NCBI RefSeq assembly: GCF_004323595.1 | Contig: NZ_AP019373.1 | Location: forward strand, 806,001 to 870,000 | DNA length: 64,000 bases | Direction: 5' to 3' | Source: Sulfuricystis thermophila | Lineage (GTDB): Bacteria > Pseudomonadota > Gammaproteobacteria > Burkholderiales > Rhodocyclaceae | In this document: positions 1 to 58,958 of the stretch, piece by piece | Layout of the letters: each line of letters begins with the position of its first letter | Numbering within the stretch: position 1 is the stretch's first letter | Translations under genes and position numbers: made by a program | The notes under the pieces: model-generated | Database searches by the model: none | What the model was told of the DNA's origin: nothing | What the model saw: the letters and a program-made list of their open reading frames with translations, nothing else

Positions 1-593
1 CCCTTGCCTTGCATCGCGAGGCAGGATTCGGGACGGGTGAGCCGGGCGACACCGATGCGTTCGGTGAGATTGAGCGTCGGCTCGGGGTCTTTCTCCTTGG
101 CGAGCAAAATCGGCTTTTCAGCCAGCTTCGCACCCGGGCGTACGCTCATGTAGGCCGGCTTCTTGTAGGTCAGCGCCCCGGTTGGGCAGGCGAGGATGCA
201 CTGCACCGCGTCGCAGGAAAAATCGCAGGCTTGCTCGCGCGCTTCGATGTAGGGCACGCCGACGCCGAAGCCATCGGCAAGGTCGGCGAGTTTGATCGCA
301 TTCACCGGGCAGACCTGCACGCATTGTCCGCACTTGATGCAGCTGGCGAGAAAATCCTTTTCATCGAGCGCACCGGGCGGGCGCAGGCGTTTCTTCTGCG
401 CATAGGCGACGGGCAGAAAGCCCGACAGCGCAGCGCCGAACACGCCGCCACCGAGCAGGATGGTGCGCATGAAGCGGCGGCGCGCCTGCAGGCGCCGCTC
501 CTTGGAAAGGGGCGGTTTGGCGCCGGGGGCTCCCTGGGGGGGCGGGGGTGCCGTGTCAGCAGCGCCGACTTTGGGGGTGTCGTCTTCGCTCAT
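1..593 (-). CDS. nosG: NosG/NapG-type ferredoxin (4Fe-4S), partial, cut by window start
   Basis: About 197 codons are visible; the rest lies before base 1. After a proline-rich N-terminus, a twin-arginine-poor hydrophobic segment (around residues 40-65, RRRFMRTILLGG then GFLPVAYA) precedes two ferredoxin cysteine clusters, CIKCGQCVQVCP and CDFSCDAVQCILACP. This matches NapG/NosG/MauM proteins, which are thought to pass quinol electrons towards periplasmic reductases. The ATG overlaps the nosD stop as ATGA, so translation is probably coupled. In Wolinella-type nos clusters nosG follows nosB and nosD, as here. The N-terminal PKVGAADTAP stretch is encoded by a copy of the dispersed 28-bp repeat (548-573). 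The exact family member (nosG against napG) is inferred from context. Confidence 0.85.
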   Translation of the reverse strand, partial: MSEDDTPKVGAADTAPPPPQGAPGAKPPLSKERRLQARRRFMRTILLGGGVFGAALSGFLPVAYAQKKRLRPPGALDEKDFLASCIKCGQCVQVCPVNAIKLADLADGFGVGVPYIEAREQACDFSCDAVQCILACPTGALTYKKPAYMSVRPGAKLAEKPILLAKEKDPEPTLNLTERIGVARLTRPESCLAMQGK

Positions 594-1969
594 CCTGCAT
601 TCCTCGCGGGTTTGTGCATGCGCGGTTTCGGGTCGCGCGCCTGCAGTTCGGGAGAGGTGATCGGGGCCAGCCGTTCGAGGAAATCGAGCAGCTCGAGTAC
701 CGGCGAAGTCTTGAAGAAACGGGCCGGCGGTGTTTCCATCCAGATCTGGTCGGCGTAGGCGTACTCCTCGTGCGGCGTGTCGCCATAGCCATCCCCATCC
801 TTGTCGAAACCCTGATAGGTGTCGAAGTAGTTGCCGCGCCAGGTGTTTTTGTCGCCCTGGCCGCGTCCGGCCTGATAGATGTCGGTCAGATTGCCTTCGA
901 AGATATTGTCGTCGAGGAAGTTGCCGCCGAGTTCGCTGGTCAGTTGCACTGCGATGCCGTTGTAGGCGAAACGATTGCCCTTGAAGCGGATCGTCGTGTT
1001 CGGCTGGAACGGCGACAGATCCGAGCCGACGCCCACGGCGCTGTAGATGATCTCGTTGTTCTCGATGAAGATGTCCGAGGCTTCCTTGAAGCCGAGCGCC
1101 ATGCCGGTCGCACCGGTGGCATGCGAGATGATGTTGTTGCGCGCGCCGCCGCCCTCCATGTACATGAAATAGATGCCGACTGCATTGTCGTAGAAACGGT
1201 TGTTCTCGACGATGTTGTTGTTGGCGAACATGAAGTGGATCGAATAGCGGCTGCGCCGTCCTTCGTTGCCGCGGTAGATGTTGCGATGCGAATACCAGGC
1301 GACGTTGTCGCGCGAATCGGTGACGAGGTTGTTTTCGATCAGGTTGTTGTTGCTGTACCAGAGGCGGATGCCATCTCCACGGATACCCAGATCGAAGGGT
1401 TTCGAGGAGATGCGGTTGCCACGCACGATGTTGTTGCTCGACTGCTTGAGGTCGATGCCGAACAGGCAGTTGTCGATCTGCAGATTCTCGATCACGTTGT
1501 TGTGGCCGCGCACGTCGAGGCAGGAATCATCGGTGTCGTGGTTGGCGCCGGAACCCGTCAGATGCATGCCACGCAAGACTGCCCCATCGGTTTCCAGCGA
1601 GAACACCGTGCCACGATCGCCGGCATCGATCGTCACCTTGCCCTCTCCGTCGATGACGAGCGGTTTCTTGACGACCACCGGCCCGGCGTAGTTGCCGGGG
1701 GGTACTTTCAGCACCGAGCCGGCCGGCGCGGCATCGACGAGCGCCTGGAACGGCGGATAGCCATGCATCCGTTTGTCGCGCTCGTAGAGCGGATAGGTGG
1801 GTTTGGGCCGATCGATCGTGACGCGCGGCGCGTTCGACAGGTCGGCCGTTTCGCCCAAGCGGCCGGAGGTCTCGCCGATGCCGACCTTGTCGCTCACCCC
1901 TTGCGCGGTGACGAGCAGCGAGAAGCCGCCGAGCATCAGACCCGGCACGATCGACCGCCAGCGCGCCAT
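590..1969 (-). CDS. nosD: NosD, periplasmic copper-site maturation protein of N2O reductase
   Basis: 459 residues. A Sec signal (first about 24 residues, ending near VTAQG) is followed by a right-handed parallel beta-helix of repeated asparagine-rich turns such as NNVIENLQI, NNIVRGNRI, NNLIENNLV and NNIVENNRF, the hallmark of NosD/CASH proteins. NosD works with the NosFY ABC transporter in assembling the CuZ centre of NosZ. A Gly/Asp-rich segment (GFDKDGDGYGDTPHEEY) near residue 400 resembles a calcium-binding loop and is usual in this family. Its start lies one base after the nosB stop, and its stop overlaps the nosG start, so nosB-nosD-nosG form one translational unit. Confidence 0.95.
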   Translation of the reverse strand: MARWRSIVPGLMLGGFSLLVTAQGVSDKVGIGETSGRLGETADLSNAPRVTIDRPKPTYPLYERDKRMHGYPPFQALVDAAPAGSVLKVPPGNYAGPVVVKKPLVIDGEGKVTIDAGDRGTVFSLETDGAVLRGMHLTGSGANHDTDDSCLDVRGHNNVIENLQIDNCLFGIDLKQSSNNIVRGNRISSKPFDLGIRGDGIRLWYSNNNLIENNLVTDSRDNVAWYSHRNIYRGNEGRRSRYSIHFMFANNNIVENNRFYDNAVGIYFMYMEGGGARNNIISHATGATGMALGFKEASDIFIENNEIIYSAVGVGSDLSPFQPNTTIRFKGNRFAYNGIAVQLTSELGGNFLDDNIFEGNLTDIYQAGRGQGDKNTWRGNYFDTYQGFDKDGDGYGDTPHEEYAYADQIWMETPPARFFKTSPVLELLDFLERLAPITSPELQARDPKPRMHKPARNAG

Positions 1970-1970
1970 C

Positions 1971-2948
1971 TCAGCTCCCCGCTGGCTGATTCAGCTGCTT
2001 GCGCCGCATCAAGAGCGCCAGCATCAGGCAGACGAAGACGATCAACAGCAGTCCGTAACCCCAATACGGGTAGGAATAGGTCGAGAACTGCGCAACCTTG
2101 CCTTCGCCGAACACGGTGGGCATGAAGGGTTTGACGGTGAATGCGCCCCACGGGTGCAGGTTGTGACCGAAGAACCACAGCCAGGCAGAATATTCGATCA
2201 CGAAATAGAGCGGCAGCAGGGCCGGCACCAGCGCCAGCAGCAGTTCGAACTTGCGCGGCCCCTTCCAGACGCCGATGATGACGATCAGCATCGCCACGAT
2301 CATGCCGGCGATCACATAACCGGTGATGCGCCAGACGTTGTCGCCCCAGACCTGGATTTTTTCCGGCTCGCGGAAGAAGGTGCCGGTCTCCTCCATGTAT
2401 TCCTTGACATGGCTAGCGAGATGGCCGAGCACGTACTGATCGACGATCGCCCACGCGGCGACGGCGGCAAAGCCCAGTGTCAGGATCGCCAGACGACGCT
2501 TTTTGTCGGTGCACATGAAGCCGAGCAGCATCACCGCGAAAAAGCCGAAGAAGAACTTCGCCAGCGGCTTCTCGACCGGTGCGCCGGTGGCGATCGGGAA
2601 CATGCCGACGTAGTGGTTGATGGTGTTCATCTCATGCACGCAGTCCAGGCCCTGCGCGCCGGTATCGACTTTCTTCTTCTGATCGAGAATCGGGTTGTAG
2701 CGCTCTTCACTGCCTTGAATGTCGGACTGGATCACTTCCTCGGCCATGCGGCTGCCCTTGCCGGCGGCCTTGCAGCCGTTATAGACGCCGTCGAAGTGGA
2801 AATGGATGCGGATGCCATCCGGGAAAGCATCCTTCGGGTAGTTGGGGGCCGTGAGCGAAACCCACCAGATCGGGGTGAAATAGGCGGCGATCATCGCGAT
2901 CAGCGCGATCAGGGTCAGTCCGCCGATCAGTTTGTTGTTTGCTTGCAT
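1971..2948 (-). CDS. nosB: NosB, membrane protein typical of clade II nos clusters
   Basis: 325 residues. The N-terminus has one membrane helix (about residues 8-24), then a periplasmic stretch of roughly 120 residues, then five or so membrane helices (FFFGFFAVMLLGFMC, LAILTLGFAAVAAWAI, VIAGMIVAMLIVIIGVW, LLLALVPALLPLYFVI, YWGYGLLLIVFVCLMLALL). It has no enzyme motif. Such a protein sits between nosZ/cytochromes and nosD in clade II (Wolinella, Dechloromonas type) clusters and is absent from the classical Pseudomonas/Paracoccus type, so it supports the clade assignment. It is presumed to help electron transfer or NosZ maturation. The start is the first ATG, behind a weak purine-rich ribosome site. 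Confidence 0.85.
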   Translation of the reverse strand: MQANNKLIGGLTLIALIAMIAAYFTPIWWVSLTAPNYPKDAFPDGIRIHFHFDGVYNGCKAAGKGSRMAEEVIQSDIQGSEERYNPILDQKKKVDTGAQGLDCVHEMNTINHYVGMFPIATGAPVEKPLAKFFFGFFAVMLLGFMCTDKKRRLAILTLGFAAVAAWAIVDQYVLGHLASHVKEYMEETGTFFREPEKIQVWGDNVWRITGYVIAGMIVAMLIVIIGVWKGPRKFELLLALVPALLPLYFVIEYSAWLWFFGHNLHPWGAFTVKPFMPTVFGEGKVAQFSTYSYPYWGYGLLLIVFVCLMLALLMRRKQLNQPAGS

Positions 2949-4348: not shown

Positions 4349-6643
4349 TTACTTCACTTTTTTGGCGCCTTTTTGTTCGAGGTAGGTTTTGGCGCGCAGG
4401 CCGAGGTCGGCGGCCTTGACCTGGTATTGCCAGACCTGTTCGGCCCAGAGGGCGGCCTGTTCCCAGTCCTTCTTGGCGGCGGCTTCCTCATGCTTCTTCT
4501 TGGCTTCGGGGATCTTGTTGAGCTGGTCGGTGGCATCCTCGACCATGGCGACGGCATCCGGGAAGTCCTTGTAATTGACCGAGGTGATGAAGGCGACGAC
4601 GGAGTCGATGACGGCCTGGGTGTCGGCGATCTTCTTCAGCTGGGCCTTGTAGTCGGCTTCCGTATAGGCCTGGGCGGCGAGCGTGGTCTTGGACGGCTTC
4701 CAGCCCTTCGGCTTGACCAGCAGATAGCCCTGCATTTCGAGGTGCAATGCCGAGCAGAACTCCGTGCAGTAGTACGGATAGACGCCTTCCTTGTCGGCCT
4801 TGAACTTCACCGTGACGGTCTTGCCGGGTTCGACGGACGCATGGACGTTGTAAGTCGACACCGTGAAGCCGTGGGTTTCGTCCTGGGCGCGTTCGAGGTT
4901 GGTCAGATGGATCGTCACCTCGTCGCCCACTTCGGCCTCGATGGTTTCCGGCGTGATGTGCGAGCGGATCAGCGAGCCGAACACCTCGACCTTGTTGCCC
5001 TTCTTGACGGTGCGCTCCTCACCGGCCTTGACGGCGGCGGGGTGCGGATTGTCGGTGCGGCTGTTGGTGCCGAGCTTGTAGCGGATCGCCGGCTTGAGCT
5101 TCTTGGCGTCGATGGCGACGACGTAGTGCGGCTCGCCCAGCGGCAACGGCATGTCGTAAAGGAGCTGCATCTTGTCGTTGCTGATGTCGATCAGCTGGTG
5201 GTTCTGCGGATGCAGGGGACCCACAGGATTGAAGCGGTCGATCGACAGCTTGTTCAACGCGACCAGATAGCGGCCCTTCGGCTTGGTGGTATCGCCTTCC
5301 ATCGTCATCAGGTGGCCGATGTTGTAATGGACGGAGATCTTGTCGAGCACCTTGCCTTCGCAGAAGTCCCATTTCGCCACTTGCGAATCGACATACAGCG
5401 AGGTGTAGGCGACGCAGGGCTTGGAATCGAACTGCGTGTGCAGGGGGCCGAGACCCAGCGAGACCTGGGTGTGCAGCGTGTCCTTCATGCTGAGCACCGG
5501 GATGCCATAGGGGTCCTTCGACTCGAACTTGCCGGCCTTGATGGCGGCCATGATCTTCTCGAAGCTATACACCGACACATGGGTGTCGAGCTTGCCGGCG
5601 ACGATGATCTTGGTGCCGTCCGGGGTGACATCGACGCCGTGCGGGCTCTTCGGCTCGGGGATCAGGAACAGGATGCCTTCCTTGACCGCGACGTCCATCG
5701 GTAGCACGTTGTGGCCGTTGATCTTCTTGGCCTTGCCTTCCTTGACCAGTTCGGCGGCGCGCTTCCAGTTGATCACGTGCAGGTAGTCGGTGTCCTTGGC
5801 GGAGCAGCCGGCCTCATAGGGCGGACGACCCTTCTCGATGCCGCCCACATAGCGCTCGGAGCAGAACGAGTTGGTGAAGCTCCAGCCATCCGACGGGCCC
5901 TTGCCGGCATCCGACAGGTCCTGCGAGTAGGGCGGTAGTTCGACGGAGAAGGATTCCGCCGGCACGATGCGGCCTTCCTTGCGGTCGAACTTCCAGTAGG
6001 TCATGCCGCCGCGGTACTTCTCGTTGAACTCTTCGAGCGGATAGAACTTGCGCGGTTCGAGCGGGGCGGCGTATTGCGAGGCTTCGAAGACGTAGTCGGT
6101 GTTCGGCGTGACGAAGGCGCCGCCGTGCTCGGACTTGAAGATCGGGTTGACGACGATCTGCTTGGTCTCGAAGTCCCTGAGGTCGATCACCGCGATGCGC
6201 GGGTTGGCCTTGTCGTTGATGAACAGGAACTGGCCATCCGATTCGCCGTTGGTCTCGGAGATCGCCGGGTGGTGGGTGTCGCCCCAGGTGATGTCCTTGC
6301 CGTCGATGCGGCCGCCGGCGAGCACCGCCTTCGACTCTTCGTCATAGCCGTAGCCCTGCCAGGGCTCGGGGGTGAATACCGCCAGATACTTGAGAATGCG
6401 CATCGAGGGGATGCCATAGACGATGATCTGGCCCGACTGTCCGCCCGAACTGAAGGCGACGAATTCATCGCGCCCCCCCGTCGGCACATAGGTCTTCGCC
6501 GCCGCCAGCAAATCCTGCTGACTCAAATTCCGCCGCTTCATCACATCCTGCAGCGTCTCGGCGCCAAACGCCGAGCCCATCACCGATACTCCCAAACCTG
6601 CCGCCATCAACCATGGTATGGCTCGCTGGCTGAATCTCTTCAT
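4349..6643 (-). CDS. nosZ: Nitrous oxide reductase NosZ, clade II, copy 1
   Basis: 764 residues from the ATG at 6643, chosen because GGGAGG precedes it and a Sec signal follows (MKRFSQRAIPWLMAAGLGVS to AFG/AETL). It reduces N2O to N2 in the periplasm. The beta-propeller carries the CuZ histidine motifs (DTHHPA, EHGGAF, KSPHGVDV, GLGPLHTQF), and the cupredoxin domain the CuA ligands CTEFCSALHLEM (C626, C630, H634, M637). The signal lacks the twin-arginine motif of clade I. About 124 residues after CuA form a lysine-rich helical extension without CxxCH, unlike the cytochrome tail of Wolinella NosZ. The mature part is identical to copy 2. The cytochrome-nosBDG operon follows on the same strand. 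Confidence 0.97.
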   Translation of the reverse strand: MKRFSQRAIPWLMAAGLGVSVMGSAFGAETLQDVMKRRNLSQQDLLAAAKTYVPTGGRDEFVAFSSGGQSGQIIVYGIPSMRILKYLAVFTPEPWQGYGYDEESKAVLAGGRIDGKDITWGDTHHPAISETNGESDGQFLFINDKANPRIAVIDLRDFETKQIVVNPIFKSEHGGAFVTPNTDYVFEASQYAAPLEPRKFYPLEEFNEKYRGGMTYWKFDRKEGRIVPAESFSVELPPYSQDLSDAGKGPSDGWSFTNSFCSERYVGGIEKGRPPYEAGCSAKDTDYLHVINWKRAAELVKEGKAKKINGHNVLPMDVAVKEGILFLIPEPKSPHGVDVTPDGTKIIVAGKLDTHVSVYSFEKIMAAIKAGKFESKDPYGIPVLSMKDTLHTQVSLGLGPLHTQFDSKPCVAYTSLYVDSQVAKWDFCEGKVLDKISVHYNIGHLMTMEGDTTKPKGRYLVALNKLSIDRFNPVGPLHPQNHQLIDISNDKMQLLYDMPLPLGEPHYVVAIDAKKLKPAIRYKLGTNSRTDNPHPAAVKAGEERTVKKGNKVEVFGSLIRSHITPETIEAEVGDEVTIHLTNLERAQDETHGFTVSTYNVHASVEPGKTVTVKFKADKEGVYPYYCTEFCSALHLEMQGYLLVKPKGWKPSKTTLAAQAYTEADYKAQLKKIADTQAVIDSVVAFITSVNYKDFPDAVAMVEDATDQLNKIPEAKKKHEEAAAKKDWEQAALWAEQVWQYQVKAADLGLRAKTYLEQKGAKKVK

Positions 6644-9062: not shown

Positions 9063-11354
9063 TTACTTCACTTTTTTGGCGCCTTTTTGTTCGAGGTAGG
9101 TTTTGGCGCGCAGGCCGAGGTCGGCGGCCTTGACCTGGTATTGCCAGACCTGTTCGGCCCAGAGGGCGGCCTGTTCCCAGTCCTTCTTGGCGGCGGCTTC
9201 CTCATGCTTCTTCTTGGCTTCGGGGATCTTGTTGAGCTGGTCGGTGGCATCCTCGACCATGGCGACGGCATCCGGGAAGTCCTTGTAATTGACCGAGGTG
9301 ATGAAGGCGACGACGGAGTCGATGACGGCCTGGGTGTCGGCGATCTTCTTCAGCTGGGCCTTGTAGTCGGCTTCCGTATAGGCCTGGGCGGCGAGCGTGG
9401 TCTTGGACGGCTTCCAGCCCTTCGGCTTGACCAGCAGATAGCCCTGCATTTCGAGGTGCAATGCCGAGCAGAACTCCGTGCAGTAGTACGGATAGACGCC
9501 TTCCTTGTCGGCCTTGAACTTCACCGTGACGGTCTTGCCGGGTTCGACGGACGCATGGACGTTGTAAGTCGACACCGTGAAGCCGTGGGTTTCGTCCTGG
9601 GCGCGTTCGAGGTTGGTCAGATGGATCGTCACCTCGTCGCCCACTTCGGCCTCGATGGTTTCCGGCGTGATGTGCGAGCGGATCAGCGAGCCGAACACCT
9701 CGACCTTGTTGCCCTTCTTGACGGTGCGCTCCTCACCGGCCTTGACGGCGGCGGGGTGCGGATTGTCGGTGCGGCTGTTGGTGCCGAGCTTGTAGCGGAT
9801 CGCCGGCTTGAGCTTCTTGGCGTCGATGGCGACGACGTAGTGCGGCTCGCCCAGCGGCAACGGCATGTCGTAAAGGAGCTGCATCTTGTCGTTGCTGATG
9901 TCGATCAGCTGGTGGTTCTGCGGATGCAGGGGACCCACAGGATTGAAGCGGTCGATCGACAGCTTGTTCAACGCGACCAGATAGCGGCCCTTCGGCTTGG
10001 TGGTATCGCCTTCCATCGTCATCAGGTGGCCGATGTTGTAATGGACGGAGATCTTGTCGAGCACCTTGCCTTCGCAGAAGTCCCATTTCGCCACTTGCGA
10101 ATCGACATACAGCGAGGTGTAGGCGACGCAGGGCTTGGAATCGAACTGCGTGTGCAGGGGGCCGAGACCCAGCGAGACCTGGGTGTGCAGCGTGTCCTTC
10201 ATGCTGAGCACCGGGATGCCATAGGGGTCCTTCGACTCGAACTTGCCGGCCTTGATGGCGGCCATGATCTTCTCGAAGCTATACACCGACACATGGGTGT
10301 CGAGCTTGCCGGCGACGATGATCTTGGTGCCGTCCGGGGTGACATCGACGCCGTGCGGGCTCTTCGGCTCGGGGATCAGGAACAGGATGCCTTCCTTGAC
10401 CGCGACGTCCATCGGTAGCACGTTGTGGCCGTTGATCTTCTTGGCCTTGCCTTCCTTGACCAGTTCGGCGGCGCGCTTCCAGTTGATCACGTGCAGGTAG
10501 TCGGTGTCCTTGGCGGAGCAGCCGGCCTCATAGGGCGGACGACCCTTCTCGATGCCGCCCACATAGCGCTCGGAGCAGAACGAGTTGGTGAAGCTCCAGC
10601 CATCCGACGGGCCCTTGCCGGCATCCGACAGGTCCTGCGAGTAGGGCGGTAGTTCGACGGAGAAGGATTCCGCCGGCACGATGCGGCCTTCCTTGCGGTC
10701 GAACTTCCAGTAGGTCATGCCGCCGCGGTACTTCTCGTTGAACTCTTCGAGCGGATAGAACTTGCGCGGTTCGAGCGGGGCGGCGTATTGCGAGGCTTCG
10801 AAGACGTAGTCGGTGTTCGGCGTGACGAAGGCGCCGCCGTGCTCGGACTTGAAGATCGGGTTGACGACGATCTGCTTGGTCTCGAAGTCCCTGAGGTCGA
10901 TCACCGCGATGCGCGGGTTGGCCTTGTCGTTGATGAACAGGAACTGGCCATCCGATTCGCCGTTGGTCTCGGAGATCGCCGGGTGGTGGGTGTCGCCCCA
11001 GGTGATGTCCTTGCCGTCGATGCGGCCGCCGGCGAGCACCGCCTTCGACTCTTCGTCATAGCCGTAGCCCTGCCAGGGCTCGGGGGTGAATACCGCCAGA
11101 TACTTGAGAATGCGCATCGAGGGGATGCCATAGACGATGATCTGGCCCGACTGTCCGCCCGAACTGAAGGCGACGAATTCATCGCGCCCCCCCGTCGGCA
11201 CATAGGTCTTCGCCGCCGCCAGCAAATCCTGCTGACTCAAATTCCGCCGCTTCATCACATCCTGCAGCGTCTCGGCGGACCATGCGGTCGCCGCTGCGAG
11301 ACCCATGCCGGCGGCCAGTAACAGCGGCACGGTTCGCTGGGTGAGTTTTTTCAT
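9063..11354 (-). CDS. nosZ: Nitrous oxide reductase NosZ, clade II, copy 2
   Basis: 763 residues. From the first mature residue (AETLQD) to the stop it appears identical to copy 1, at DNA as well as protein level; CuZ and CuA ligands are therefore the same (CuA C625, C629, H633, M636). The signal peptide differs at most positions from that of copy 1 (MKKLTQRTVPLLLAAGMGLA to AWS/AETL) but is again Sec-type with a good AxS cleavage site. GGGAGT precedes the ATG. It is flanked by its own FNR-type promoter upstream and a strong terminator downstream, so it is a separate transcription unit. Two nosZ copies in one cluster are uncommon. Confidence 0.97.
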   Translation of the reverse strand: MKKLTQRTVPLLLAAGMGLAAATAWSAETLQDVMKRRNLSQQDLLAAAKTYVPTGGRDEFVAFSSGGQSGQIIVYGIPSMRILKYLAVFTPEPWQGYGYDEESKAVLAGGRIDGKDITWGDTHHPAISETNGESDGQFLFINDKANPRIAVIDLRDFETKQIVVNPIFKSEHGGAFVTPNTDYVFEASQYAAPLEPRKFYPLEEFNEKYRGGMTYWKFDRKEGRIVPAESFSVELPPYSQDLSDAGKGPSDGWSFTNSFCSERYVGGIEKGRPPYEAGCSAKDTDYLHVINWKRAAELVKEGKAKKINGHNVLPMDVAVKEGILFLIPEPKSPHGVDVTPDGTKIIVAGKLDTHVSVYSFEKIMAAIKAGKFESKDPYGIPVLSMKDTLHTQVSLGLGPLHTQFDSKPCVAYTSLYVDSQVAKWDFCEGKVLDKISVHYNIGHLMTMEGDTTKPKGRYLVALNKLSIDRFNPVGPLHPQNHQLIDISNDKMQLLYDMPLPLGEPHYVVAIDAKKLKPAIRYKLGTNSRTDNPHPAAVKAGEERTVKKGNKVEVFGSLIRSHITPETIEAEVGDEVTIHLTNLERAQDETHGFTVSTYNVHASVEPGKTVTVKFKADKEGVYPYYCTEFCSALHLEMQGYLLVKPKGWKPSKTTLAAQAYTEADYKAQLKKIADTQAVIDSVVAFITSVNYKDFPDAVAMVEDATDQLNKIPEAKKKHEEAAAKKDWEQAALWAEQVWQYQVKAADLGLRAKTYLEQKGAKKVK

Positions 11355-13128: not shown

Positions 13129-13406
13129 GGCGTGAAGAACAATGCGTCGATGCGCGCTGCGTTGGCGAAATCCTTGTCGGTGAGCCCGCCGGCGCTATGG
13201 GTGGTGAATGCCACGCGGCAGCGGTTGTAGCCAACCTCGAGATCGGGATGATGGTCGCTGCGGTGGGCGATCCAGGCGAGGGCATTCACGAAGGCCAGCG
13301 TCTCATGGTAATTGGCGAAATGGTAGGTCTTGACGATGGCATTGTCTTGGCGTGCCCAGCCCTCGAGCGCGGCAAGGCGATGAGCGATCTCCTGCTCGTT
13401 CAGCAT
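13125..13406 (-). CDS. phhB: 4a-hydroxytetrahydrobiopterin dehydratase (PhhB/PCD family)
   Basis: 93 residues, the usual length. The family's histidine-rich active-site stretch is present (AWIAHRSDHHPDLEVGYNR), and the C-terminal TTHSAGGLTDKDFANA segment is typical. The enzyme dehydrates 4a-carbinolamine pterins made by aromatic amino acid hydroxylases; in bacteria lacking those it may protect molybdopterin-type cofactors. AAGGAG stands upstream. Its start overlaps the peptidase stop and its stop overlaps the rsgA start. Confidence 0.92.
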   Translation of the reverse strand: MLNEQEIAHRLAALEGWARQDNAIVKTYHFANYHETLAFVNALAWIAHRSDHHPDLEVGYNRCRVAFTTHSAGGLTDKDFANAARIDALFFTP

Positions 13407-14680: not shown

Positions 14681-14724
14681 GAACGAAAAAATGGGTCAGA
14701 TATGTAAGAATGCAAGCCGTTCAA

Positions 14725-14930
14725 CCCAGATTGTCCATTGGAACACGAGCGGGTTTCGAAGGCGAGGGCGAGCAGGTTTGCGTCCCCGCGACGAGCCAAT
14801 AACGGTGTCTATTGGCGAGGAGCGGGGGCGCGAAGATGCCGCCCGCAGCCCGAAAACTGCCGTGTAGGGCGCTGAAATGATCGTTTCGCATGCCCATGGC
14901 GCATCAGCCCGGTCTAATGGATAATCTGGG
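14725..14930. mobile_element. 206-bp MITE-like element, copy 1
   Basis: The element begins CCCAGATTGTCCATTGG and ends with its near-complement CTAATGGATAATCTGGG, giving terminal inverted repeats of about 17 bp with one mismatch. It is flanked on both sides by TTCAA (14720-14724 and 14931-14935), a 5-bp target duplication. Inside lies a small hairpin (CCAATA at 14796-14801 with TATTGG at 14810-14815) but no gene. A second copy of the same length, about 95 % identical, is at 27660-27865. It sits between the M48 peptidase and orn. The mobilising transposase is not in the window. Confidence 0.9.
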
Positions 14931-14957
14931 TTCAATACTTCGGAAGCGAAGCGCAGT

Positions 14958-27658: not shown

Positions 27659-27659
27659 A

Positions 27660-27865: not shown

Positions 27866-27879
27866 TTGAATTCGCCCCC

Positions 27880-29601: not shown

Positions 29602-29630
29602 GGGCCCGTGCATTGTAAACTGCCGCCATC

Positions 29631-41111: not shown

Positions 41112-41559
41112 CGTTCGCATCCTCGATCCCCGTCTCAAGGACGAGAAAGGCGGTTATGCGCCGCATTACGCCACGCCGGGGGCGGCGGGGATGGATCTGC
41201 GCGCCTGCATCGAGGCGCCGGTGCGGCTGCATCCGAACGAAACGATGCTGGTGCCGTCTGGCATCGCGATCCATATCGCCGATCCGGGCATGGCGGCATT
41301 GATCCTTCCCAGATCGGGACTGGGCCACAAGCATGGCATCGTGCTCGGCAACCTCGTCGGCCTGATCGATTCGGATTACCAGGGCGAAATCTTCATCTCC
41401 CTGTGGAACCGCGGCCATGAAGTCTTCGCGCTCAATCCCCTCGATCGCGTCGCCCAACTGGTGATCGTGCCGGTGCTGCAGGTCGGCTTCAATATCGTCG
41501 ACGACTTCGAAGCCTCTCATCGCGGCGCAGCCGGATTCGGCAGCACTGGCAAAGCTTGA
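41098..41559 (+). CDS. dut: dUTP diphosphatase
   Basis: 153 residues. The trimeric dUTPase motifs are present: [45 protein letters not shown] and the C-terminal arm [10 protein letters not shown]. It removes dUTP and supplies dUMP. It overlaps coaBC, a common pair. A composite dispersed repeat follows immediately. Confidence 0.98.
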
Positions 41560-41565
41560 TCTGGG

Positions 41566-41676
41566 GGTGCCGTCCCGCCAGCGCCGACTTTCCGAGGTAA
41601 GGAGGCGCCCGGCGGGACGCTCGTTTTACGCCAGCGCCGACTTTCGTCGAGCGTCGGTGCCTGGGCGCCACTTTCG
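41566..41676 (+). repeat. Composite dispersed-repeat cluster after dut
   Basis: Three parts in order: a full 28-bp repeat (GGTGCCGTCCCGCCAGCGCC from 41566, ending TTTCCGA), a block GGCGCCCGGCGGGACG (41604-41619) whose GGCGGGACG is the complement of CGTCCCGCC in the first part, and a second partial repeat ACGCCAGCGCCGACTTTCG (41628-41646). A degenerate third copy lies at 41656-41676. The same order and spacing recur at 49711-49792. Intergenic; the inverted blocks could form a hairpin. Confidence 0.85.
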
Positions 41677-45638: not shown

Positions 45639-45680
45639 CGTGCCGTGTCGCCAGCGCCGACTGGCGTGTCGGCGCTGGCG
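45639..45680. repeat. Dispersed repeat in inverted pair, hairpin after aceB
   Basis: A repeat copy (45639-45660) is followed by its own complement: TCGCCAGCGCCGAC (45647-45660), a 6-base loop and GTCGGCGCTGGCGA (45667-45680), a perfect 14-bp stem. It lies 6 bp past the aceB stop and may protect or end the transcript; there is no T-run. Confidence 0.8.
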
Positions 45681-45686: not shown

Positions 45687-47297
45687 TTATTCCATCGCCT
45701 CGTAGAGTGGCAGGGTGAGGAACTCGGGAAATTCCTCGGCGAGCGACATCTGCTCGAAGATCTTCGCCGCCTGATCATAGGTGTCGGTTTTTTCGCCATT
45801 GGCGGCGACGACTGCCTTGACCTTGGCGAGTTCTTCCGGAATCATCGCCTTGACCATCTCGGCGGTGATCTTCTCGCCGGCGCGCGGGCCTTCCGAGATT
45901 ACCCCCTTGGGCGAACGCACCCACTGCCAGACCTGCGAGCGGGAGATTTCGGCGGTGGCGGCGTCTTCCATCAGGTTGTGGATCGGCACGCAGCCGTTGC
46001 CGGCGAGCCACGAGCCGAGATAGTGGATGCCGACGTTGATGTTGTTGCGCAAGCCCGCCTCGGTGATCGGCTTTTCCGGGCCGAAGTTGAGCCAATCCTT
46101 GGGGCCGAAGCTGCCTTCGATCTGTTTGTCCCACTGGTTCGGTCGCTCGCCGAGCACCTTGACGAATTCCTCCATCGCGATCGGCACCAGACCCGGATGG
46201 GCGACCCAGCCGCCGTCATAGCCGTCATTGGCATCGCGTCGCTTGTCGTGGCGGATGCCGGCGAGCGCCTTTTCGTTCGCTTCCGGATCGTTCTTGATCG
46301 GAATGAGGGCGCTCATGCCGCCGATCGCTGGCGCGCCGCGCTTGTGGCAGGCCTGCACCAGCGCCAGCGCATAGCTGCGCATGAAGGGCACTTCCATCGT
46401 GATCGCACCGCGGTTGGCGAGACAAAAATCCTTGTTGCGCTTGAACTTCTTGATGGCGCTGAAAATGTAGTCCCAGCGACCGGCGTTGAGCCCCGCGCTG
46501 TGCTCGCGCAGCTCATAGAGGATTTCTTCCATCTCGAAGGTGGCGAGGATGGTCTCGACCAGCACCGTGGCCTTGATGGTGCCGCGCGGTAAGCCAATGT
46601 GATCCTGGGCCATGCAGAAGATGTCGTTCCACAGCCGCGCTTCGAGATGCGATTCCATCTTCGGCAGATAGTAGAAGGGGCCGGCGCCGCGCGCGATCTG
46701 TTCCTTCGCGTTGTGGAAGAAGACGAGGGCAAAGTCGAAAATGCCGCCACTGACGCGCTGGCCATCGATGGTGACGTGTTTCTCGTCGAGATGCCAGCCG
46801 CGCGGGCGGATCTGCAGGGTGGCAATCTTGTCGTTGAGCTTGTATTCCTTGCCGGCTTCGTTGGTGAAGGTAATCTGACGGCGGATCGCGTCATAGAGAT
46901 TCACCTGGCCCTGGATCTGGTTGTACCAGTTCGGGCTGTTGGAATCCTCGAAGTCGGTCATGTAGGAATCCGCGCCTGAGTTGAAGGCATTGATGATCAT
47001 CTTGCGCTCGACCGGGCCGGTGATCTCGACGCGGCGGCAATGGAGCGCGGGCGGCAGCGGGGCGATCTTCCAGTCGCCTTCGCGGATGTGCTTCGTTTCC
47101 GGCAGGAAGTCGGGCATTTCGCCGGCATCGATGCGTGCCTGACGCTCGATGCGTTTTTTCAGCAATTCCTGACGGCGCGGCTCGAAGGCGCGGTGCAGCT
47201 TGGCGACGAATTCGAGTGCCTCCTTGGTGAGGATTTCATCGAAGCGGGGATGGATTGGCGCGTTGATCTGCACGCCGGCAGGTAGGTCGAGGTTCAT
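45687..47297 (-). CDS. aceB: Malate synthase A
   Basis: 536 residues, the malate synthase A type. Typical stretches include DFEDSNSPNWYN, RPRGWHLDEKHV, PKMESHLEARLWND, GTIKATVLVETILATFEMEEI and NVGIHYLGSWLAGNGCVPI. It condenses glyoxylate and acetyl-CoA to malate in the glyoxylate shunt. The 17-bp palindromic operator in front is shared with aceA (isocitrate lyase), located 2.2 kb away. Confidence 0.98.
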   Translation of the reverse strand: MNLDLPAGVQINAPIHPRFDEILTKEALEFVAKLHRAFEPRRQELLKKRIERQARIDAGEMPDFLPETKHIREGDWKIAPLPPALHCRRVEITGPVERKMIINAFNSGADSYMTDFEDSNSPNWYNQIQGQVNLYDAIRRQITFTNEAGKEYKLNDKIATLQIRPRGWHLDEKHVTIDGQRVSGGIFDFALVFFHNAKEQIARGAGPFYYLPKMESHLEARLWNDIFCMAQDHIGLPRGTIKATVLVETILATFEMEEILYELREHSAGLNAGRWDYIFSAIKKFKRNKDFCLANRGAITMEVPFMRSYALALVQACHKRGAPAIGGMSALIPIKNDPEANEKALAGIRHDKRRDANDGYDGGWVAHPGLVPIAMEEFVKVLGERPNQWDKQIEGSFGPKDWLNFGPEKPITEAGLRNNINVGIHYLGSWLAGNGCVPIHNLMEDAATAEISRSQVWQWVRSPKGVISEGPRAGEKITAEMVKAMIPEELAKVKAVVAANGEKTDTYDQAAKIFEQMSLAEEFPEFLTLPLYEAME

Positions 47298-47340: not shown

Positions 47341-47358
47341 GAAATATCTTATATAAGA
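47341..47358 (-). promoter_or_regulatory. Palindromic operator before aceB, shared with aceA
   Basis: TGTCTTATATAAGATAT on the minus strand (47344-47360) contains the perfect 12-bp palindrome TCTTATATAAGA (47347-47358), centred about 55 bp before the aceB start. On the minus strand TTGTTT and TAAGAT with a 16-bp spacer could be the -35 and -10, so the palindrome would overlap the -10. The same 17-mer lies before aceA. Confidence 0.65.
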
Positions 47359-47426
47359 CAAATGAAAAAACAAGCTTGGATTACGCACATTTTGGTCAAT
47401 GATGACTTGACTAGAATGCGCCCAAT

Positions 47427-48701
47427 CTACGCATGGGGCAGATAAATCGCCCGGAAATCGTTGACGTTGGTGCGCGTCGGCCCGGTGATGACGAGTTGGC
47501 CGAGGGCAGCGAAAAAACCGTAGCCATCGTTGCGTGCCAGAAAGTTGGCGCTGACAAGACGGCACGCTTTCGCGCGTTCGCGCACGTCCGGGCCGAACCA
47601 GGCGCCGGCATTGTCCTCGGTGCCGTCGATGCCGTCGGTATCGCAGGCGAGCGCCCAGACCGGGATGTCGAGCACATGGGCGAGTGCCAGCAGGAATTCC
47701 GCATTGCGTCCGCCACGACCATTGCCGCGCACGGTGACCGTCGTTTCACCGCCCGAGAGGATCACGCAGGGCTTTCGCGCCGGTTCGTCGAAACGGAAAA
47801 TCTGCCGTGCGATCGCCGCATGGACGTAGGCGACGTCACGTGCTTCGCCCTCGATCGTATCGCCCAGTACCAGCGGTGTGACGCCTTGACATCGGGCAAA
47901 GGCAGCCGCAGCTTGTAATGCCTGCTGGGCCGTGGCAATGATGTGGGTTTCGCAGTGGGACAGGCGTGGGTCGCCGGGCTTCGGCGTCTCGCATTCAGCG
48001 CTTTCGAGCCAGGCGTGAACGTGCGGCGGCACCTCGATCCCGTATTTGGCGAGAATGCCGAGCGCGTCGCTGCGCGTGGTCGGGTCGGCCACCGTCGGTC
48101 CCGAGGCGAGCGCGGAAGGGTCGTCGCCCGGAATGTCGGAGATGCCCAGCGTCACTACTCGCGCAGGGGCCGCGGCGAGCGCCAGCCGCCCGCCTTTGAT
48201 GGCCGACAGGTGCTTGCGCACGCAGTTCATTTCGTGGATGTTCGCACCGCTCCTCAAGAGCGCCTTGTTGATCGCCTGTTTGTCGGCAAGCGTGAGACCG
48301 GGAGCAGGCAAGGCCAGCAGCGCCGAGCCACCGCCCGAGATCAAGCAGAGCACCAGATCGTCCTTCGTGAGCCCGCGCACCAGATCGAGCATACGTGTTG
48401 CGGCTTGTTCGCCCGCGACATCGGGCACCGGATGCGCGGCTTCGACGACCTCGATCCTTGTGGTCGTCATGCCATGGTCATAGCGTGTCACGACCATGCC
48501 CGAGAGCGGCGCATTGGCTGGCCAGTGCGCCTCGACCGCGGCTGCCATCGCGGCAGCCGCCTTGCCGGCGCCGATCAGCACCGTGCGTCCCTTGGGGGGT
48601 GGAGGCAGATGCGGCGGCACGCACACCGCAGGGCTCACCGCCGCCAGCGCGGCATCGAACAGCTTGTGCAGGAAGCTTTGCGGAGGATTGGTTACAGGCA
48701 T
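47427..48701 (-). CDS. Glycerate 2-kinase / hydroxypyruvate reductase-like (MOFRL, GckA/TtuD)
   Basis: 424 residues from the ATG of MPVTNPPQSF. The N-terminal DUF4147 domain has VLIGAGKAAAAMAAA and ISGGGSALLALP; the C-terminal MOFRL domain has SGGETTVTVRGNGRGGRNAEF and DTDGIDG. Enzymes of this type phosphorylate glycerate to 2-phosphoglycerate, although older annotation names them hydroxypyruvate reductase. It fits a glyoxylate or C2-compound pathway together with the neighbouring aceB and is divergent from a LysR regulator, which probably controls it. Confidence 0.92.
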   Translation of the reverse strand: MPVTNPPQSFLHKLFDAALAAVSPAVCVPPHLPPPPKGRTVLIGAGKAAAAMAAAVEAHWPANAPLSGMVVTRYDHGMTTTRIEVVEAAHPVPDVAGEQAATRMLDLVRGLTKDDLVLCLISGGGSALLALPAPGLTLADKQAINKALLRSGANIHEMNCVRKHLSAIKGGRLALAAAPARVVTLGISDIPGDDPSALASGPTVADPTTRSDALGILAKYGIEVPPHVHAWLESAECETPKPGDPRLSHCETHIIATAQQALQAAAAFARCQGVTPLVLGDTIEGEARDVAYVHAAIARQIFRFDEPARKPCVILSGGETTVTVRGNGRGGRNAEFLLALAHVLDIPVWALACDTDGIDGTEDNAGAWFGPDVRERAKACRLVSANFLARNDGYGFFAALGQLVITGPTRTNVNDFRAIYLPHA

Positions 48702-48811: not shown

Positions 48812-49711
48812 ATGGATCGTCTCAAATTGATGGAAACTTTCGTCGCCGTCAGCCAGCGCGGCAGCCTGACGGCCGCGGCGATGGCCGAGGGGGTGGCGCC
48901 GGCAGTGATCAGCCGTCGCCTCGATGCGCTCGAAGCGCGCCTCGGCGTCAAGCTGTTGGTGCGCACGACCCGGAAGATCACACTGACCTTCGAAGGCAGC
49001 GCCTATCTCGAAGATTGCCAGCGCATCTTGCGCGAACTGGCCGATGCCGAAGCGGCCGTCACCGAGGGCAGCGCGCGTGCCAGTGGCTTTCTTCGCGTCA
49101 CTGCGCCGGCGGGGTTTGGCCGCAAGCATGTCGCCCCGCTGTTGCTCGACTATCTACGCGCTCACCCAGAGGTGAGCGCCAGTCTCGATTTGTCGGACCG
49201 CACGGTCGATCTGGTCAACGAAGGCGTGGATTGCGCCGTACGGTTGGGTGGGCTGGTCGATTCGAGTCTGGTTGCCGTGCGGCTCGGCGAGATGAGGCGC
49301 GTCGTGGTCGGTAGCCCGGCCTATTTCCAGCAGCATGGCGTGCCGCGCACGCTCGATGACTTGTCATGCCACGTCTGTCTTGCGCTCGTCACGCAGGCCG
49401 GCTGGGATTTCGTGGTCGACGGCAAGCCCGTGCTCTTCAAGCCAGGCGGTCGTTTCGCCTGTAACGATGGCGCGGTGTTACACGACTGGTCGTTGGCCGG
49501 CATGGGGCTCGCCTGGCGCTCGCTCTGGGAAGTGGGCGAGGATCTGCGCTGGGGACGTCTCGTATCGGTGCTCGACGCATTCGCCGCGCCGCCGGTGGGC
49601 ATCCATGCAGTTTTCCCACAGCGCCGCCATCTGCCCTTACGTGTGCGGCTGTTCATCGAACTGCTGAAAGCGCATTACAGCCGGCCCGATTACTGGGATA
49701 AGCGTGAGTAG
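48812..49711 (+). CDS. LysR-family transcriptional regulator
   Basis: 299 residues from the ATG at 48812 with AAGGGG upstream (a GTG six bases before is in frame). The N-terminal winged helix (MDRLKLMETFVAVSQRGSL, AVISRRLDALEARLGVKLL) and the substrate-binding domain (about 90-295) follow the CrgA/DmlR-like subgroup. The 110-bp gap to the divergent glycerate kinase gene is the expected operator region; glycerate, tartronate or glyoxylate-type effectors are possible. Confidence 0.95.
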   Translation: MDRLKLMETFVAVSQRGSLTAAAMAEGVAPAVISRRLDALEARLGVKLLVRTTRKITLTFEGSAYLEDCQRILRELADAEAAVTEGSARASGFLRVTAPAGFGRKHVAPLLLDYLRAHPEVSASLDLSDRTVDLVNEGVDCAVRLGGLVDSSLVAVRLGEMRRVVVGSPAYFQQHGVPRTLDDLSCHVCLALVTQAGWDFVVDGKPVLFKPGGRFACNDGAVLHDWSLAGMGLAWRSLWEVGEDLRWGRLVSVLDAFAAPPVGIHAVFPQRRHLPLRVRLFIELLKAHYSRPDYWDKRE

Positions 49712-49792
49712 GTGCCGTCCCGCCAGCGCCAAGTATCCGAAATGACTCGGCGCCCGGCGGGACGTCGAAATTTCCGCCAGTGCCGGATTTCG
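49711..49792 (+). repeat. Composite dispersed-repeat unit after the LysR gene
   Basis: The unit starts on the last base of the LysR stop codon: a 28-bp repeat (49711-49740), then GGCGCCCGGCGGGACG 38 bases from its start (49749-49764), then a partial copy (49774-49792). The same three parts at the same spacing occur after dut (41566-41646), so this is a defined element of about 82 bp and not separate chance matches. Confidence 0.85.
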
Positions 49793-51292: not shown

Positions 51293-51339
51293 ACTATAAC
51301 GACTATTTTGCAAAGCAACAAGTGTCTTATATAAGATAT
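51293..51339 (-). promoter_or_regulatory. aceA promoter with the shared palindromic operator
   Basis: On the minus strand a -35 TTGTTG (51316-51321), 17-bp spacer and -10 TATAGT (51293-51298) form a good sigma-70 promoter. Directly upstream lies TGTCTTATATAAGATAT (51323-51339, plus-strand reading), identical to the 17-mer before aceB. The leader to the aceA ATG is about 115 nt. The gap 51171-51396 holds nothing else of note. Confidence 0.7.
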
Positions 51340-51396
51340 ATGTTAGAAAATTTTAATGCGCCGCCGTAATGGGTTTATGGATGGCAGAAGGAAAAG

Positions 51397-55055: not shown

Positions 55056-55084
55056 TGTGCCGTCCCGCCAGCGCCGATTTTCGA
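55056..55084 (+). repeat. Dispersed 28-bp repeat copy
   Basis: TGTGCCGTCCCGCCAGCGCC followed by GATTTTCGA, nearly the family consensus, between the cold-shock gene and its terminator, so it is transcribed in the 3' UTR. Confidence 0.85.
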
Positions 55085-55133: not shown

Positions 55134-56378
<1,245 letters not shown>

Positions 56379-56475
56379 GATGGCTCCACTGACGGTTGCA
56401 ATCGCTTCATTATCCATGATTGATTGCCGGCTCGCCAGCGCCGTCGCCCACAGGAAGGCCGGCTCAGGCAGGCTG

Positions 56476-56638
56476 TTAACGTGAAATACACAGCAGAAAG
56501 CGCATCCGGCGTGTGTTTCCTTGACGGTAGGCAACCCTCGCGGCGGCACGCCGCGCTGACAGTCTCCCCGCCCGCGAGGGCGGGGCTGGGGGTGGGCGGG
56601 TGTTTGTTCTTGCGCTTGGGGTATTTCATCCTCTGCGG
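56476..56638. repeat. Dispersed intergenic element, about 160 bp, copy A
   Basis: The 319-bp gap 56379-56697 between icd and aceK contains an element that recurs in reverse orientation at 58986-59142. Shared blocks include TTAACGTGAAATAC, TTTCCTTGACGG, GCCGCGCTGA, GTCTCCCC, CCCGCGAGGG and GTATTTCATCCTC. The ends GTGAAATAC and GTATTTCAT form short inverted repeats. Its interior has two GC-rich hairpins. No coding capacity. Confidence 0.75.
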
Positions 56639-56697
56639 GGGAGCGTGGCGTTCAGCGCGTTAGAATCGATCGCACTGAGTTCGATGAATCCCGAAAA

Positions 56698-58494
56698 ATG
56701 GCTGTAACCCTGAGTCTGGCGCCGGGCGCGTCGCTGCTCGAACGACAGGCGTTGGCGATCGCGCAGACCTTGCTGGCCGGTTTCGACAGGCACTATCGCT
56801 TGTTCCGTGAGATTTCGGCGGCAGCCAAGGAATACTTCGAGGCAGGCGACTGGCCCGGGGTGCAGCGAGCCGTCCGCGAACGCATCCAGTTTTACGATGA
56901 CCGGGTCGCCGAGACGGTCGCGCGCCTGCACCGCGAGTTCGGCCAAGATGCCCTGGATACCGACATCTGGCGTCAGGCCAAGCTCTATTACATCGGCTTG
57001 CTGACCGAACACTCCCAGCCGGAGCTGGCGGAAACCTTTTTCAATTCGGTGTTCTGCAAGATCCTGCACCGCACCTATTTCCACAACGAATTCATCTTCG
57101 TGCGGCCGGCCATCTCGACGGAGTACATCGAGTCCGATCCGCCTGCCTTTCGCTTTTACTACCTGCGCGAAGCCGACTGGCGTGCGGCGCTGGCCCGCAT
57201 CTTCCTCGATTTCGGCTGGCGGCGTCCGTTTGCCGATCTCGAACGCGACATCGACTGGCTGTTGCGCGCCGTGCGCGAGCGTTACCCGGTGCTGCCCCTG
57301 CGCGATGAAAACTTCCAGATCCAGGTGCTGTCCTCGGCCTTCTACCGCAACAAGGCTGCCTATGTGATCGGCAAGGTGATCAACGGCGCGGCCGAATATC
57401 CGTTCGCCGTCCCGGTGCTGCATGATGGAGAAGGCAGGCTCTATCTCGATACCCTCCTGCTCGATGCGGCGGACATCGGCGTGCTGTTTTCGCTCTCCCG
57501 CGCCTATTTCATGGTGGATATGCCGGTGCCGGCGAACACCGTACAGTTTTTGCGCAGCCTGATGCCCAACAAGCCGCGCGCCGAGATCTATTCGATGCTC
57601 GGGCTCGGCAAGCAGGGCAAGACCTCGTTCTACCGCGGCCTGATCTCCCATCTGCATCACTCGGACGATCAGTTCGTCATCGCGCCGGGCATTCGCGGTC
57701 AGGTAATGCTGGTGTTCACGCTGCCGTCCTACCCCTATGTCTTCAAGGTGATCAAGGATCGCTTCGGCGCCAGCAAGGAAGTCGATCACGCCACGGTGAG
57801 ACGCAAGTATCAGCTCGTCAAGCAGATCGATCGCGTCGGTCGCCTGGCCGATACCCTCGAGTTTTCTCTGGTCGCGCTGCCGAAGGAGCGGCTGGCACCC
57901 GAGTTGATCGAGGAGTTCCAGCACGAGATTCCTTCGCAGCTCGAAGAGGAGGGCGGCGATTTGATCATCAAACATCTCTACATTGAGCGGCGCATGGAAC
58001 CGCTCAATCTGTATCTGGAGCGTGCGCTCGCCGCCGGCCGTGACGATCAGGTCGAGCAGGCGGTGATCGAATATGGCAACGCCATTCGCGAGCTGGCGAT
58101 CGCCAACATCTTCCCGGGCGATCTGCTATGGAAGAATTTCGGGGTGACGCGCTATGGCCGCGTGGTGTTCTACGATTACGACGAAATCGAGTTCATGACC
58201 GACTGCCGTTTCCGGCGCATTCCGCCGCCGCCCAACGAAGAAGCGGAGCTGTCCGGCGAACCTTGGTATTCGGTGGGCAAAAACGACGTGTTTCCCGAAG
58301 AGTTCGCCGCTTTCCTGCTCGGCGATCCGCGTATCCGCGCCGCATTTATGAAGCATCATGCCGACCTGCTCGATGTCGGCTTCTGGCAGCGTGCGCAGGA
58401 AGACATTCGCAGCGGAAAGATCCGCGACTTTTTTCCCTATCCCGAGTCGCTGCGTTTTTGCCACCGCTTTGACGAAAGGAAGGAGACCCGATGA
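56698..58494 (+). CDS. aceK: Isocitrate dehydrogenase kinase/phosphatase AceK
   Basis: 598 residues. Family segments include FFNSVFCKILHRTYFHNEF, FYRGLISHLHHSDDQF, GIRGQVMLVFTLPSYPYVFK (ATP-binding part), NIFPGDLLWKNFGVTRYGRV and FYDYDEIEFMTDCRFRRIP (catalytic/metal region). It reversibly phosphorylates Icd, diverting isocitrate to AceA during growth on acetate or fatty acids. It is divergent from icd; its stop overlaps the DUF192 gene by 4 bp. Confidence 0.98.
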   Translation: MAVTLSLAPGASLLERQALAIAQTLLAGFDRHYRLFREISAAAKEYFEAGDWPGVQRAVRERIQFYDDRVAETVARLHREFGQDALDTDIWRQAKLYYIGLLTEHSQPELAETFFNSVFCKILHRTYFHNEFIFVRPAISTEYIESDPPAFRFYYLREADWRAALARIFLDFGWRRPFADLERDIDWLLRAVRERYPVLPLRDENFQIQVLSSAFYRNKAAYVIGKVINGAAEYPFAVPVLHDGEGRLYLDTLLLDAADIGVLFSLSRAYFMVDMPVPANTVQFLRSLMPNKPRAEIYSMLGLGKQGKTSFYRGLISHLHHSDDQFVIAPGIRGQVMLVFTLPSYPYVFKVIKDRFGASKEVDHATVRRKYQLVKQIDRVGRLADTLEFSLVALPKERLAPELIEEFQHEIPSQLEEEGGDLIIKHLYIERRMEPLNLYLERALAAGRDDQVEQAVIEYGNAIRELAIANIFPGDLLWKNFGVTRYGRVVFYDYDEIEFMTDCRFRRIPPPPNEEAELSGEPWYSVGKNDVFPEEFAAFLLGDPRIRAAFMKHHADLLDVGFWQRAQEDIRSGKIRDFFPYPESLRFCHRFDERKETR

Positions 58495-58925
58495 AAGCAC
58501 TCATCACGGCCGTCTTGCTGTTGACGGCTCTCGGCGCCGCCGCCCAGTCGTTGCCGGTGATCGAACTCAACGCCGGCATCCACCGCATCGAAGCCGAAGT
58601 GGCCGCCAGCCCCGAGGCGCGCATGCGCGGGCTGATGCAGCGCACGACACTGCCGCCCCAGCGTGGCATGCTGTTCGTCTTCGACCAGGAGGCGCGCCAC
58701 TGCATGTGGATGAAGAACACCTATCTGCCGTTGTCGGTCGCCTTTCTCGATGCCGCGGGCCGCATCCTCAACATCGAGGAGATGCAGCCGCAGACCGAGG
58801 ACAATCACTGCGCCGCGCGGCCGGCGCGCTTTGCGCTGGAAATGAATGCCGGCTGGTTTGCCCGACGCGGCATCCGGGCGGGTGACACCATCGGCGGCAT
58901 CGGCAAGGCGCCGCGCGCGTTTTGA
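58491..58925 (+). CDS. DUF192 family exported protein
   Basis: 144 residues. A Sec signal (to about AAAQS) is followed by the DUF192 core: TPxxRxxGLMQR-type start (SPEARMRGLMQRTTLPPQRG), MLFVF, CMWMKNTYLPLSVAFLD and ALEMNAGWFARRGIRAGD. The function is not established. It is coupled to aceK. Confidence 0.92.
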   Translation: MKALITAVLLLTALGAAAQSLPVIELNAGIHRIEAEVAASPEARMRGLMQRTTLPPQRGMLFVFDQEARHCMWMKNTYLPLSVAFLDAAGRILNIEEMQPQTEDNHCAARPARFALEMNAGWFARRGIRAGDTIGGIGKAPRAF

Positions 58926-58932
58926 AGCGCCA

Positions 58933-58958
58933 GGTGCCGTATCACCAGCGCCGACATT
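58933..58958 (+). repeat. Dispersed 28-bp repeat copy (degenerate)
   Basis: GGTGCCGTATCACCAGCGCC then GACATT, 7 bp after the DUF192 stop codon. It differs from the consensus at about four positions. Confidence 0.75.

Follow-up and report, generated by a model that had tools for sequence, protein, structure and literature searches.

A 64,000-nucleotide stretch of the Sulfuricystis thermophila chromosome (contig NZ_AP019373.1, positions 806,001 to 870,000; hereafter the window) carries a short repeat that recurs both between genes and inside conserved protein-coding genes. How did the same letters come to stand, and to be tolerated, in so many coding frames? The first-pass annotation of the window described a 28-bp repeat that inserts in frame, in the manner of the Rickettsia palindromic elements (RPEs). 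Our analysis points to two elements: a sharply bounded 25-bp motif, GTGCCGTNNCGNCAGCGCCGANTTT, which to judge from its sequence pattern is most likely, with better than even confidence, a DNA uptake sequence (DUS) of natural transformation; and a derived 54-bp hairpin unit that lies inside some copies of this motif. The uptake reading is drawn from constraint at the DNA level, the use of three reading frames, even spacing, placement at the 3′ ends of genes, thinness in accessory DNA, and dialects, all of which are hallmarks of uptake sequences.

The window genome (G000, a single contig of 2.74 Mb) was compared with a sister species (G002) and with a congeneric genome that lacks the motif (G006). 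Across the whole window, the 25-mer has 12 copies at up to three mismatches, against none in 100 dinucleotide shuffles. All ten copies of the first-pass annotation are among them, displaced by one or two bases at most; two further copies, at 21788-21812 and 47541-47565, are additional. Pfam bears out the M48 peptidase, Hda, MutL, and DUF3108 hosts named there, the nosG name fits the minus-strand 4Fe-4S protein gene near whose start the first copy lies, and the reading frames had been correctly assigned. The copies at 41567 and 49712, however, form the first part of a longer hairpin element of 78/79 bp that had been missed. The copies are as follows.

548-572, plus strand: motif copy near the start of the minus-strand 4Fe-4S (nosG-like) gene; frame KVGAADTA.
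13696-13720, plus strand: motif copy in the M48 peptidase gene (13400-14680, minus strand); frame KVGADGTA.
21788-21812, minus strand: motif copy in a poly(A) polymerase family gene (21778-23133, minus strand), within the part coding for the C-terminal tail; newly found.
24243-24267, minus strand: motif copy in hda (23790-24491, minus strand); frame CRSASADF.
28577-28601, minus strand: motif copy in the mutL linker (27880-29613, minus strand); frame AVPPAPTF; the sister species has two 54-bp units here (+108 bp).
31983-32007, plus strand: motif copy in the DUF3108 gene (31619-32671, plus strand); frame AVPPAPTF; the sister species has three 54-bp units here (+162 bp).
41567-41644, plus strand: motif and one hairpin unit (53 extra bp), intergenic, a few bases past the stop of 41098-41559 (plus strand).
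45640-45664, plus strand: motif copy forming a hairpin with an inverted half copy after it, intergenic, 3′ of gene 45687-47297 (minus strand).
47541-47565, minus strand: motif copy in a DUF4147/MOFRL gene (47427-48701, minus strand); frame CRLVSANF; newly found.
49712-49790, plus strand: motif and one 54-bp hairpin unit, intergenic, immediately past the stop of 48812-49711 (plus strand).
55057-55081, plus strand: motif copy, intergenic, 3′ of gene 55134-56534 (minus strand), adjoining a terminator-like hairpin.
58934-58958, plus strand: motif copy, intergenic, 3′ of gene 58491-58925 (plus strand).

The repeat is not peculiar to the window. A 27-mer of it has 139 forward and 143 reverse copies (282) genome-wide at up to three mismatches, against 0 and 0 for the reversed control, so that the repeat is real and strongly over-represented on both strands; stretches at 2.2 and 2.5 Mb also bear copies. 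In a 424-kb segment of the same genome, 79 copies were found at up to four mismatches and none of the reversed motif. Among these 79 copies the information content drops abruptly at both edges (positions 1 and 26). The blocks TGCCGT, CAGCGCCGA, and TTT are near-invariant, whereas much more variation is seen at positions 8, 9, and 22. Such bounded, block-like conservation argues for a site read by a protein rather than a decaying insert. No strand polarity along the chromosome is seen among the matches listed (100 per strand), and a polar motif of the Chi or KOPS type was rejected on this ground.

Inside genes, the motif is held at the DNA level. In the alignable coding copies, third-codon positions of the motif core differ between the window genome and the sister species at 20 of 294 sites for copies of the former (0.068) and at 7 of 210 for copies of the latter (0.033), compared with a divergence of 0.26 in the rest of the motif-bearing genes; motif positions outside the core diverge somewhat more than the flanks. 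Ancestral coding similarity, which the first-pass annotation had named as the alternative to its own proposal, fails as an explanation, since third-codon positions in the core are constrained like the other two. Three of the six possible frames (KVGAGGTA, AVPPAPTF, and CRPASADF) hold 54 of 58 coding copies in the window genome and 41 of 45 in the sister species. The low core divergence could also stem from conversion between copies, in which case the motif would be a selfish sequence homogenised by recombination (molecular drive) and of no use to the cell, and the arrays and 27-bp in-frame duplications described below do show recombination at motif sites. This explanation nevertheless appears improbable: the flanks are not homogenised, the copies retain their own letters at the free positions 8, 9, and 22, and even spacing is not expected from it.

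The placement of the copies is also patterned. Motif spacing is more even than random (coefficient of variation 0.70 versus 0.98 in the window genome; 0.80 in the sister species). In non-shared blocks longer than 2 kb the motif is scarce, with 3 copies against 9.8 expected (P 0.012) and 2 against 6.2 (P 0.053). Within the 424-kb segment, where about 94% of bases are genic, 58 of the 79 copies lie inside called genes, in both orientations, genic and intergenic counts here depending on the calls of a crude in-house gene caller. Only rarely do intergenic copies fall between divergent genes (0 of 21 in the window genome, 1 of 19 in the sister species), and their distances to stop codons are 25 bp or less in 19 of 30 and 18 of 24 cases, respectively. 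A position right after stops and away from divergent pairs, together with the hairpins that some intergenic copies form, would fit a motif that works as RNA, as a terminator or mRNA-processing signal. We hold this to be highly improbable, given the predominance of genic copies in both orientations, the weak folding of a lone motif, and the lack of any match to Rfam families in the window.

Whether the copies were inserted or arose in place can be judged from orthologous sites. The sister genome is largely collinear with the window genome, with identities of mostly 83-91% in the long aligned blocks. Among 94 copies of the window genome (up to five mismatches), 70 have a counterpart in the sister species (up to six mismatches), 13 do not, and 11 are unalignable; conversely, of 85 sister copies sought in the window genome, 64 have a counterpart, 12 do not, and nine are unalignable. 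Where a counterpart is absent, the site has changed by substitution, holds an array of the 54-bp unit, or is too divergent to read; none of the 25 absences was seen to be a clean 25-28-bp gap in a site intact in other respects. In 337,827 bases of G006 there is no motif copy at up to five mismatches; the motif-bearing genes have 13 orthologue matches in this genome, of which 12 span the motif site. Ten of these 12 show no gap over the motif residues, one a gap of one residue, and one a gap of four; over 25 residues on each side, five show no net length difference, four differ by 1-4 residues, and the remaining three by 10, 12, and -14. At hda, orthologues without the motif differ in length by no more than a few nucleotides. 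Around residue 200 of MutL, the motif is present in several members of the genus and in two metagenome-assembled genomes (MAGs) outside it and is absent by substitution in others. Of the 29 aligned rows, from species with and without the motif, 26 show no gap there, and three have nine extra residues, in at least one case beside a partial second motif. Additions of 27 bp in frame were observed near this residue in L152 (G013), L164 (G016), and L072, and the M48 gene of the sister species (L177/B segment) has an additional 27 bp next to a motif shared by both genomes. At least some of these additions at or beside motif sites are partial motif duplications.

These alignments bear directly on the proposal of a 28-bp mobile element inserting in frame. 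In its favour, the motif is dispersed and in frame within genes, and a net shortening by 10 and 12 residues near the motif in two of the 12 G006 orthologues would fit an insert. An inserted 28-bp element was rejected, however, because most orthologues without the motif show no gap over its residues and no clean gap was seen among the absences between the sister genomes; the proposal is largely refuted and retains only the faintest likelihood. What stands of it applies to the 54-bp derivative, which does lie in frame and does resemble the RPEs. The motif itself thus combines DNA-level conservation and origin in place with rarity in accessory DNA, the last being a modest depletion.

The motif is enriched in a part of the family. 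Of 150 family genomes, 15, from six genera, show strong enrichment of the half motif AGCGCCGACTTT, with 96-518 copies; two other genomes have 11 and 13 copies and the rest six or fewer, like the control. In a tree of 50 MutL rows, motif-bearing rows fall within one Sulfuritalea-like clade (support 99/87), and the motif label requires three changes on the tree. The negative rows inside the clade are G006, which has a very long branch (1.33 changes per column) and has lost the motif, and G018, which appears negative because its fragment spans 6 kb; its genome has 149 motif copies. The phylogenetic spread is one supported clade, with dialects by genus. The window genome and its nearest relatives have T as the second base and the other lineages mostly C, some copies carry CGGCGT, and most copies of a Sulfuritalea MAG locus carry CGCTAGCG. 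A single perfect 25-mer in L061 (G047, from another family) may represent transfer or contamination.

The motif is also found in phages. At least 120 stretches of viral contigs (IMG/VR) bear it. The 80 viral loci kept (L334-L413), each selected for bearing the motif, amount to 754,515 bases; they contain 109 copies at up to four mismatches and none of the 54-bp units. Seven of ten viral-contig proteins match phage families, including terminase, tail fibre, tape measure, primase, and antirepressor, and two other viral-contig proteins have a Mu-transposase domain. One phage contig (L352) has five motif copies at steps of about 316 bp.

Uptake sequences are textbook knowledge for two families, and the uptake signal sequence (USS) of the Pasteurellaceae is a long, extended motif that is rich in T on one side; its sequence, AAAGTGCGGT, is unrelated to the motif. 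In the accessible parts of the literature, the USS is described as abundant in coding and non-coding DNA, with an orientation and frame bias in genes (PMC2346458), as is the case here. The neisserial DUS, as characterized in the accessible parts of two papers (PMC2397512, PMC3630211), shares with the motif hundreds or more copies, residence in the core genome, permissive yet conserved sites, inverted terminator pairs, and dialects. Both contain the string TGCCGTC as part of their sequence. The motif differs from the DUS in length (25 bp versus 10-12), lower density, and other order, and no receptor for it was found among the ComP_DUS matches described below. Nor does the motif belong to the neisserial sequence family, as it contains neither the 12-mer ATGCCGTCTGAA nor the CTG core given in the accessible part of PMC3630211.

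The second element was recognized because 10 of the 60 window-genome copies displayed open a longer element. Its unit, CCGCCAGCGCCGACTTTnCGAGGTGAGTCGGCGCCCGGCGGGACGTCnTCATTT, is 54 bp (18 codons) long and is made up of half the motif, a near-inverted copy, and two short spacers. It forms a hairpin, with the near-inverted motif copy as the right arm, a long bulged stem, and a loop of about 10 nt; one stem pair covaries (8 compensatory cells versus at most 4 in 500 shuffles). The units occur inside the motif as one to four tandem copies, in the layout GTGCCGTC-[unit]n-CCGCCAGCGCCGACTTT. Unit cores (up to two mismatches) number 63 in the window genome, 54 in the sister species, 18 in G004, and 10 in G007, and 0-7, near the control level, in the other 15 genomes of the genus. 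Several outgroups have the bare motif at sites that hold units in the sister species, such as mutL and DUF3108, which indicates that the motif predates the unit.

After removal of arrays lacking a recognisable left half-motif, a crude in-house array caller placed 31 of 57 arrays inside genes and 19 between them, with seven partial. Not all of the 57 are independent, since about six pairs look orthologous between the window genome and the sister species. In all 30 measurable arrays called genic, the length added is a multiple of 54; six of the 25 measurable lengths of other arrays are not (53, 55, 55, 55, 110, and 168; Fisher test, P 0.006). Some calls are doubtful: the DUF3108 array of the sister species was left intergenic with the frame open through it, array L289 was called intergenic and its apparent orthologue L306 genic, and four arrays in frame opp2, most of them close to the end of a gene, may have been wrongly called. 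Among ten array-bearing proteins scanned, nine match families, namely MltA, RibD, FlgJ-like, two E2 acyltransferases (the array lying between annotated domains in both), TrpC, AroA, MetH, and IspH; one has no family match. The AroA, TrpC, MetH, RibD, and E2 hosts are from the window genome or its sister, and IspH and MutL from the sister species. The two genomes differ in length by exactly 54n at four sites, including mutL and DUF3108, and a gene that we take to be NnrS-like has one unit in the window genome and two in its sister. The sister's frames of these three genes stay open through the arrays.

The 54-bp unit is thus a palindromic element lying in frame inside protein genes. RPEs are likewise palindromic, in frame in many genes, and single or grouped; they are, however, rickettsial and of another sequence, whereas the unit is exactly 54 bp, tandem, and set inside a pre-existing conserved motif. 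Repetitive extragenic palindromes (REPs) of the GTAG/CGTC type, including the intragenic REPs of Thauera and other bacteria, are also short hairpins, single or grouped, and in frame in genes (PMC3733652, as far as its accessible part describes them). The same part gives the CGTC REP a CGTC tag outside an 8-9-bp stem and a 4-5-nt loop. The unit has no GTAG/CGTC tag outside the stem, a longer bulged stem, and a loop of about 10 nt, and lies within another conserved motif; a CGTC REP was rejected on this structure. A REP driven by a REP-associated tyrosine transposase (RAYT), a possibility raised in the first-pass annotation, was also rejected: PF01797 is absent from G000, G002, G004, and G007, the four genomes richest in units, and present in five of 19 genomes of the genus.

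Several observations weigh against the proposed uptake function and its satellite. Genes for the competence machinery are present in the window genome (comEC and dprA), but ComEC and DprA are equally widespread in motif-free relatives. Of 50 genomes, 47 have ComP_DUS matches, whether or not they bear the motif (21 of the 22 that do, 26 of the 28 that do not), and motif-free G006 retains ComP_DUS, ComEC, and DprA. The three proteins were consequently rejected as markers of motif-bearing genomes, and no cognate receptor tracking with the motif was found among the ComP_DUS matches of the 50 genomes. The density, about one copy per 5 kb at up to four mismatches, is below that of the neisserial DUS (about one per 1.1-1.5 kb in the accessible part of PMC2397512), and carriage by phages differs from the prediction for a pure self-DNA tag. 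As for the unit, four of eight array comparisons between the window genome and the sister species are not exact multiples (63, 98, -494, and 10 bp), and the hairpin covariation rests on essentially one pair.

In the main rival reading, the motif would be the binding site of a chromosome-organising or global regulatory protein, under equal selection at the DNA level. Any protein-binding site would fit the DNA constraint, the blocks, the even spacing, and the clade-wide presence, and the phages bear the motif too. We know of no candidate protein, however, replication polarity is lacking among the matches listed, and tolerance in hundreds of genes, 3′-end preference, and dialects are closer to uptake sequences; a binding site of this kind is therefore a possible but rather unlikely explanation.

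If the motif is an uptake sequence, copies would arise at permissive places through mutation and recombination with DNA taken up from kin, and would persist because motif-bearing DNA is preferentially taken up and recombined. A pilus or competence protein would presumably read the motif. The 54-bp unit may spread by recombination or template switching via the shared motif halves; the motif would then be the address of the unit, and the 18-codon length and permissive sites would make genic insertions survivable.

The window has other features besides the motif. In the nos region, two long genes close to each other (4349-6607 and 9063-11354) have identical stretches (300 nt at 100%), apparently a duplication of what we take to be nosZ. 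A second dispersed repeat, of 217 bp and 95% identity, lies at 14720-14936 and 27655-27871; it has complementary ends, is MITE-like (miniature inverted-repeat transposable element), and is also present in the sister species and G007. Inverted arms at 56476-56545 and 59077-59143, about 2.6 kb apart, enclose two genes (56698-58494 and 58491-58925) and are possibly transposon ends or shared operators. A 23-nt AT-rich near-palindrome at 47342-47364 and 51320-51342 is perhaps a regulator site.

In the open-licence literature, consulted mostly as titles and the beginnings of abstracts, no DNA uptake sequence in Rhodocyclaceae and no such motif in the group was found, and the words "repeat" and "competence" are absent from the accessible part of the Ca. 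Desulfobacillus paper (PMC8402940). The combination of a putative hairpin satellite addressed to an uptake-like sequence was likewise not found described there. We tentatively propose, with slightly less than even confidence and on the pattern of sequences across genomes, that the Sulfuritalea-like clade of the Rhodocyclales has an independently evolved uptake sequence outside the Neisseriaceae and Pasteurellaceae, together with an 18-codon satellite hairpin addressed to it that adds in-frame linkers to housekeeping enzymes. If this is true, self-DNA preference in transformation would have evolved repeatedly, and environmental bacteria with cultured relatives would offer a new system for finding the receptor. 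The 54-bp unit is a clean case of a repeat made tolerable in genes by its length and landing place, and the arrays in E2, AroA, TrpC, MetH, RibD, IspH, and MutL make it possible to test directly how added 18-residue repeats affect conserved enzymes.

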